Below are positions 31,090 through 31,730 of a stretch of 37,670 bases of DNA, one piece after another (the stretch's first letter is position 1; each line of letters starts with the position of its first letter). This stretch comes from Microcaldota archaeon (GTDB taxonomy: Archaea > Micrarchaeota > Micrarchaeia > Micrarchaeales > CABMGC01): the NCBI GenBank assembly GCA_021823435.1, contig JAKANZ010000002.1, positions 1 to 37,670 of the forward strand, in the 5' to 3' direction. Both the position numbers and the translations under genes were made by a program. Below the pieces are notes generated by a model. It saw nothing but the letters and a program-made list of their open reading frames with translations. It had not been told where the DNA came from and searched no databases.

Positions 31090-31182
31090 CAAATCAACGG
31101 TTTAACGCAAAAGTGTTTCCGAAGAAGGTATTTATTTATGTTAACAGACCATGGAGGAACCTGCTTCGCAAGGTTTCCCAGG

Positions 31183-31257
31183 CGGGCACGGCGGGATTTG
31201 AACCCGCAACCAACAGCTCCGCAAGCTGCCGTGCTATCCAAGTTACACCACGTGCCC
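31183..31257 (-). tRNA. tRNA-Arg(GCG)
   Basis: 75-nt cloverleaf: acceptor GGGCACG/CGTGCCC, D arm around GTGTAACTTGGATAGCAC, anticodon stem GCAGC/GCTGT (one G-U) with loop TTGCGGA (anticodon GCG), T stem GCGGG/CCCGC with loop TTCAAAT, discriminator G. CCA not encoded. Its 3' end faces the ABC transporter and the integrase remnant. On the opposite strand an ATG at 31138 enters the tRNA 3' end in the frame of that remnant (RRARRDLNP), like int-N of the other element. Confidence 0.94.
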
Positions 31258-31317
31258 TCGGTGCTTTTATATACCTTGCTTTATTAATAAGATTCTACGC
31301 TTCTTTGAAGTGATAAA

Positions 31318-31485
31318 ATAGGACCACTAGCAGGCAAAGTATGTGTTTCGTGCGGCAGGCTTACCTCCGCGTACACAGAATTCAAATGCCCTAATTGCGG
31401 CAAAAGCGACATAATACGCTGCAAGCAGTGCCGCGAAACGTACAACAAGTACAAGTGCAAGGAATGCAACTTTGAGGGACCCTGA
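31318..31485 (+). CDS. Zn-ribbon RNA-binding protein (translation-associated), non-canonical start
   Basis: About 55 aa with four CxxC pairs: VCVSCGRL, FKCPNCGKS, IRCKQCRET and YKCKECNFEGP. This is the archaeal COG2888/DUF1610-like double zinc ribbon that in many archaea sits just upstream of aEF1-beta, as here (TGATG overlap at 31483-31487). There is no ATG, GTG or TTG in frame between the upstream stop (31306-31308) and the first cysteine motif. The best candidate is ATA 31318, with GTGAT 3 nt before it; an indel near 31310 is the alternative. Confidence 0.78.
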   Translation: MGPLAGKVCVSCGRLTSAYTEFKCPNCGKSDIIRCKQCRETYNKYKCKECNFEGP

Positions 31486-31730
31486 TGGGCAACGTAGCGG
31501 TCCTTTTCCGAGTCTACGCGCAGGAAGGCAAGGAAGAGACGGTCAGGAAAGAGATAGTTGACAAACTGAAACCAAAAGGTTCGCAGCTTGAAGATGTCGC
31601 CTTCGGCATAAAGACGATAAAGGTACTTTTCATGCATGACGACTCCACGGGTAGCTCGGAGATAGAGGAACAGCTAAGAAAGATATCTGGCGTAAAGGAA
31701 GTCGAGATTGTGGAAGAGAGCCTTGTATAA
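31485..31730 (+). CDS. Translation elongation factor aEF1-beta
   Basis: 81 aa, nucleotide exchange factor for aEF1A. NVAVLFRVYAQEGKEETVRK, KGSQLEDVAFGIKTIKVLFM and EIEEQLRKISGVKEVEIVEE match the family's alpha-beta sandwich and conserved C-terminus. It is coupled to the zinc-ribbon gene through a TGATG overlap. Confidence 0.9.
   Translation: MGNVAVLFRVYAQEGKEETVRKEIVDKLKPKGSQLEDVAFGIKTIKVLFMHDDSTGSSEIEEQLRKISGVKEVEIVEESLV

Follow-up and report, generated by a model that had tools for sequence, protein, structure and literature searches.

An AUA codon as the probable start of the ribosomal protein aS21 gene in a Microcaldota archaeon, and recurrent isoleucine-codon starts among its Micrarchaeota relatives

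Gene layout of the locus and identity of the protein

The window analyzed here, a 37,670-nucleotide stretch of DNA from a Microcaldota archaeon, carries a small zinc-ribbon gene of the HVO_2753 type that overlaps the gene for aEF1-beta (Table 1). Its reading frame (31309-31485) follows a TGA at 31306-31308 and begins AGT GAT AAA ATA GGA CCA CTA GCA GGC AAA GTA TGT. The preliminary description of this DNA stated that the frame holds no ATG, GTG, or TTG between this TGA and the first Cys motif, and the reading frame bears this out. The four CxxC pairs (CVSC, CPNC, CKQC, and CKEC) and the C-terminal FEGP that it listed are intact in the translation. The overlap with aEF1-beta that it reported is a TGATG junction, with one base in common between the aS21 stop codon TGA (31483-31485) and the ATG at 31485, which suggests that translation of aEF1-beta follows that of aS21. 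The leader of aS21 is probably about 20 nt long, as judged from the TATA-like TTTTATATA. AUA, AUU, and AUC start codons are referred to below as AUH.

Table 1. Features of the aS21 locus in the window
Feature	Position	Strand	Remarks
aS21 gene (HVO_2753-like zinc ribbon)	31318..31485	+	ATA start to TGA stop; start column aligned with the ATG of relatives
ATA start codon of aS21	31318..31320	+	ATG, ATA, ATT, or ATC in the same column in relatives
Shine-Dalgarno match GTGAT	31310..31314	+	anti-SD GATCACCTC at the 16S 3' end (L418, the window's genome)
TATA-box-like TTTTATATA	31265..31273	+	probable aS21-aEF1-beta promoter; read in the sequence, function presumed
aEF1-beta gene (PF00736)	31485..31730	+	ATG overlaps the aS21 stop (TGATG); translational coupling probable
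tRNA-Arg(GCG), divergent neighbor	31181..31257	-	outside the start; same neighbor in L055, L056, L078, L097, L107, and L118

The window protein scored 51.8 bits against Pfam PF07754 (HVO_2753_ZBP), for which the curated cutoff is 33.2, and has the four CxxC knuckles and C-terminal GP of the aS21 family. A profile built from its relatives matched chains resolved on archaeal 30S subunits (6sw9_C, E value of 9.1e-14; 6skf_Az; 6tmf_W; and 9fhl_C), the archaeal ribosome chain 9o17_AZ, and the nuclear magnetic resonance structure 6ydh. By these matches, the gene product is the archaeal 30S ribosomal protein aS21, an identification that goes beyond the preliminary description, as does the order-wide start codon pattern reported below. 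The name aS21 was given to a protein located where eukaryotic eS21 sits (PMC7005279), and its position on the 30S subunit is between uS2, uS5, and uS8 (PMC7196836). The protein is also present in Methanosarcina (PMC12605026), and a Haloferax deletion mutant of HVO_2753 has a swarming deficit (PMC10716476). By sequence, aS21 of Pyrococcus abyssi, Thermococcus celer, and Methanosarcina and HVO_2753 of Haloferax belong to the same family and fold; the passages of PMC7005279, PMC7196836, and PMC12605026 that were available make no mention of an unusual start codon for these genes. Among 59 related genomes, 57 carry aS21, each in a single copy.

Start codon of aS21 across the order

The preliminary description proposed comparing the start among close relatives. 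Six other genomes of the genus carry the gene, and in the aligned start column, three have ATA (G006, G004, and G001; loci L002, L003, and L007) and three have ATG (G005, G002, and G003; loci L004 to L006); G007 gave no match. We then read the start column in 119 distinct aS21 genes of the Micrarchaeota order, taken from 80 named Micrarchaeota loci and further genomes with fetched loci after removal of identical sequences (L131 and L149 belong to other orders and were left out of the counts). The start was ATG in 73 genes, ATA in 38, ATC in 4, ATT in 3, and TTG in 1 (L044), with no GTG, so that AUH starts are found in 45 of the 119. The start of L013, where a TTG had been misassigned, was set to ATG by hand, and its named twin L067 was treated likewise in the tree. 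The set includes 10 genes without all eight cysteines (five ATA, four ATG, and one TTG). The ATG majority, to which the two complete genomes in the sample (L109, A_DKE, and L128, ARM-1) belong, shows that an AUH codon is not required for aS21.

Of the first 40 AUH genes, 16 lack any canonical codon from the upstream stop to the first cysteine. In L062, L112, L115, and L130, an in-frame stop directly precedes and touches the AUH codon; with the stop immediately before ATA in L062, L112, and L115, no upstream in-frame start is possible there. AUH-start aS21 genes are found both behind their own promoter beside tRNA-Arg and 3' of an open reading frame (ORF) of approximately 610 to 680 codons, indicating that the AUH start is independent of any single promoter. 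In other families of the class, 20 homologues were read by eye: 16 start with ATG and 3 with GTG or TTG, and for L172, the choice between ATG and ATT is ambiguous. There was no clear AUH start among these 20 from outside the order.

A tree built from aS21 and aEF1-beta together, with the window and every one of the 80 named loci included (36 AUH and 45 AUG), has at least 20 changes of start state. This tree is weakly resolved: well-supported branches force only 3 changes, or 6 in a careful 75-row tree, and the few alignment columns make the count of about 20 a rough one in which gain and loss are indistinguishable.

Shine-Dalgarno sequence and initiator tRNA

The 16S rRNA 3' end reads ...GATAGATCACCTC in 29 of 30 loci, including that of the window's genome (L418), and ...ACCTA in L435; the Shine-Dalgarno (SD) sequence complementary to the former is GAGGTGATC. 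The common 16S end GGATCACCTCC was found in just 3 of 20 genomes searched. The GATAGATCACCTC ends of these loci (L407 to L436) are unlike the usual TGGATCACCTCC.

An SD match of at least 6 nt precedes 39 of the 45 AUH aS21 genes versus 9 of the 73 ATG genes (Fisher P = 3e-16; Mann-Whitney P = 7e-16; kinship ignored). A tree-independent test on the 75-row tree, restricted to six well-supported pairs that differ in start type, had about five pairs in the expected direction and almost none in the opposite one (P = 0.06). GTGA and the start codon are 4 nt apart in 36 of 40 AUH genes. Many relatives have AGGTGAT, whereas the window shares with the AUA relatives in its genus only GTGAT, a match of 5 nt; it and they are thus not the strongest cases. 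Tallies of SD-anchored starts were discarded because of internal chance matches. Low GC content as a driver of AUH starts was rejected, as the median GC fraction of the loci is nearly equal for AUH (0.485) and AUG (0.497) genes (P = 0.09); that of the window is 0.51.

The initiator tRNA appears ordinary: 49 of the 59 genomes have the anticodon arm GGGCTCATAACCC, which carries CAU, and ARAGORN called this arm tRNA-Met in G001 and G004. The use of AUA, AUU, and AUC alike is better accounted for by the normal initiator mispairing at the third position than by a special tRNA.

Specificity to aS21

Starts were compared in stretches sampled from the window's genus (461 comparisons and 361 query genes). 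Nine flags were raised for ATA lacking a canonical start nearby, all of them at aS21, and nearly all of the other genes compared have canonical starts. AUA starts as a general feature of the genus were therefore rejected. On inspection by eye, the other flags in the genus appear to be internal or antisense alignments, the one exception being the ACG of uS4 in G002. In genus g42, two cases among 112 comparisons and 84 genes are credible: aEF1-beta with ATT (L100 and L126) and uS4 with ATA (G054). When the ORFs of the named loci were first clustered, 22 of the 77 from aS21 were without a canonical start, compared to 0 to 3% for most other true clusters; naive ORF-cluster counts, dominated by antisense and out-of-frame ORFs, were discarded. 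Among the best 30 loci each for aIF1, eS28, and eL37A from the 59 genomes, every gene had a canonical codon within the searched stretch. For uS4, the 43 starts that could be read were 28 ATG, 13 TTG, 1 ATA, and 1 ACG (9 of 52 loci were not read by motif and were left out). The ratio of AUH to GUG/UUG among non-AUG starts is 45:1 for aS21, 1:13 for uS4, and 0:12 for eL37A, indicating that aS21 shuns mildly weak starts and takes the type discriminated against by bacterial IF3.

The ATA of uS4 in G054 (L504) follows GGTGATTAA, and the ACG is that of L217 in G002. The ATT of aEF1-beta in L100 and L126 follows an in-frame TAA, and the close relative L127 has ATG; in both loci, aEF1-beta lies 106 to 108 nt from aS21 with no overlap. 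An ATT start of this uncoupled aEF1-beta fits an operon-wide throttle, on the basis of two close relatives.

Proposed explanation and alternatives

The same aligned codon and GTGAT-NNN spacing in independent metagenome-assembled genomes (MAGs) support what the preliminary description had named the best candidate, and AUA 31318 is almost certainly the true start of aS21. We consider it probable (roughly 0.7) that initiation at this AUA is driven by the SD sequence with the ordinary initiator tRNA and that a limiting or regulatory effect on expression is why the codon has been kept or regained. The SD (GTGAT, or AGGTGAT in many relatives) would place AUA in the P site, where the ordinary initiator Met-tRNA would pair with two of the three bases, so that Met is presumably still the first residue and the SD offsets the poor start codon. 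The weak AUH codon may throttle or regulate aS21 output and have been retained or regained for this; through the TGATG overlap, aEF1-beta output would be throttled or regulated too. A candidate discriminator of start codons is aIF1, which destabilizes initiation complexes on non-AUG mRNA according to earlier work cited in PMC6237735.

The codon could instead be merely tolerated, with a good SD permitting drift to AUA and no regulatory use. The many AUG/AUH switches (about 20) could reflect such neutral drift, AUG is the start in most of the 119 genes, and ATA, which makes up 38 of the 45 AUH starts, is one transition away from ATG. However, drift should also yield the GUG and UUG starts seen in uS4 and eL37A of these genomes, and aS21 has a single UUG against its 45 AUH starts; AUH starts are also nearly absent from the other genes compared. 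We regard tolerance without function as unlikely, though the most serious of the alternatives, and a regulatory role of the AUH codon as likely.

The remaining alternatives carry far less weight. Translation might begin elsewhere. It could use a downstream codon, since 18 of the 40 AUH genes have a canonical codon between AUH and the first cysteine (in some species a TTG five codons before it), or it could restart after a GTG mini-frame of three codons that has its stop across the AUA, as a GTG frame ends over the AUH codon in 26 of 40. The window and the other strict genes (16 of 40) have no downstream canonical codon before the first cysteine, the predominant 4-nt spacing suits the AUH codon, and the overlapping stop is absent or otherwise arranged in 14 of 40 and is a product of composition, ATA followed by A or G. 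Initiation elsewhere is accordingly improbable. The preliminary description had left a choice between AUA initiation and a leader indel or assembly error. Fragmentation of the MAG to which the window belongs (55 contigs and 78% complete) speaks for an error, but the ATA and its spacing recur in three other genomes of the genus and in many genera. Nor do the relatives reveal the loss of a base that would put GTG 31310 in frame, which it had named as the finding to overturn AUA initiation. Of the two options, error is thus very unlikely and AUA initiation holds. Of similarly negligible probability is a special initiator tRNA, or an altered code, reading AUA as a start. A sequence in G018 with TAT at the anticodon place was an apparent lead but lies in no predicted tRNA; the CAU site of G002 likewise went undetected by ARAGORN, so the program's silence on G018 is weak evidence. 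Against this explanation, AUU and AUC serve as starts too, and no comparable rate is seen in other genes.

Relation to known systems

In bacteria, infC, encoding IF3, starts with ATT in Escherichia coli and ATC in Streptomyces, and its product represses noncanonical starts, including its own (PMC5472188). As in infC (PMC5472188), the AUH start of aS21 lies in a translation gene and is held in several species, and a comparison of relatives places this noncanonical codon at the true start. In contrast to bacterial IF3, which itself judges start codons, aS21 is a 30S protein that is not known to take part in selecting starts. We do not class aS21 as an infC-type member, and self-feedback is a hypothesis. 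In Streptomyces sigR, an IF3-repressed GTC start holds the protein level down (PMC5472188), as is proposed here for the AUH start of aS21, although sigR is bacterial, encodes a sigma factor, uses GTC, and was tested experimentally. In the accessible portion of the literature on archaeal non-AUG starts, Micrarchaeota starts, and HVO_2753, we found no report of an AUA or other AUH start of archaeal aS21; a differently worded report could have been missed.

As a tentative and rather doubtful extension, an infC-like loop might operate in these archaea. In such a loop, aS21-poor 30S subunits or a lower stringency of aIF1 would allow more SD-anchored AUH initiation, and the AUH start of aS21-aEF1-beta would sense and restore 30S composition or initiation fidelity; uS4 (ATA or ACG, each in a single genome) and the uncoupled aEF1-beta (ATT) may belong to the same circuit.

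Gene callers restricted to ATG, GTG, and TTG would miss, truncate, or misplace aS21 in AUH species. A ribosomal protein gene that starts recurrently at an isoleucine codon, as 45 of 119 distinct aS21 genes do, amounts to a natural experiment on start codon judgement in archaea and suggests that control by poor start codons, known from bacteria, may occur in archaea as well. Archaeal in vitro systems suited to examining such initiation already exist.

Minor observations

Archaeal controls matched, but eS27 (PF01667), tried as a fourth control family, gave almost no matches and none over the cutoff in any of the 59 genomes, in which it appears to be lost or strongly diverged. A small zinc-ribbon gene of G001 (IPHCAICGSEL; L187, plus strand, ORF at approximately 1498) has ATA versus ATG in G002 and is absent from the stricter genus survey. 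One of the eight cysteines is lost in aS21 of L084, L116, L121, L122, L042, L044, L050, and L123 (e.g., IIRDKHC), and these copies may have a degenerate zinc site.
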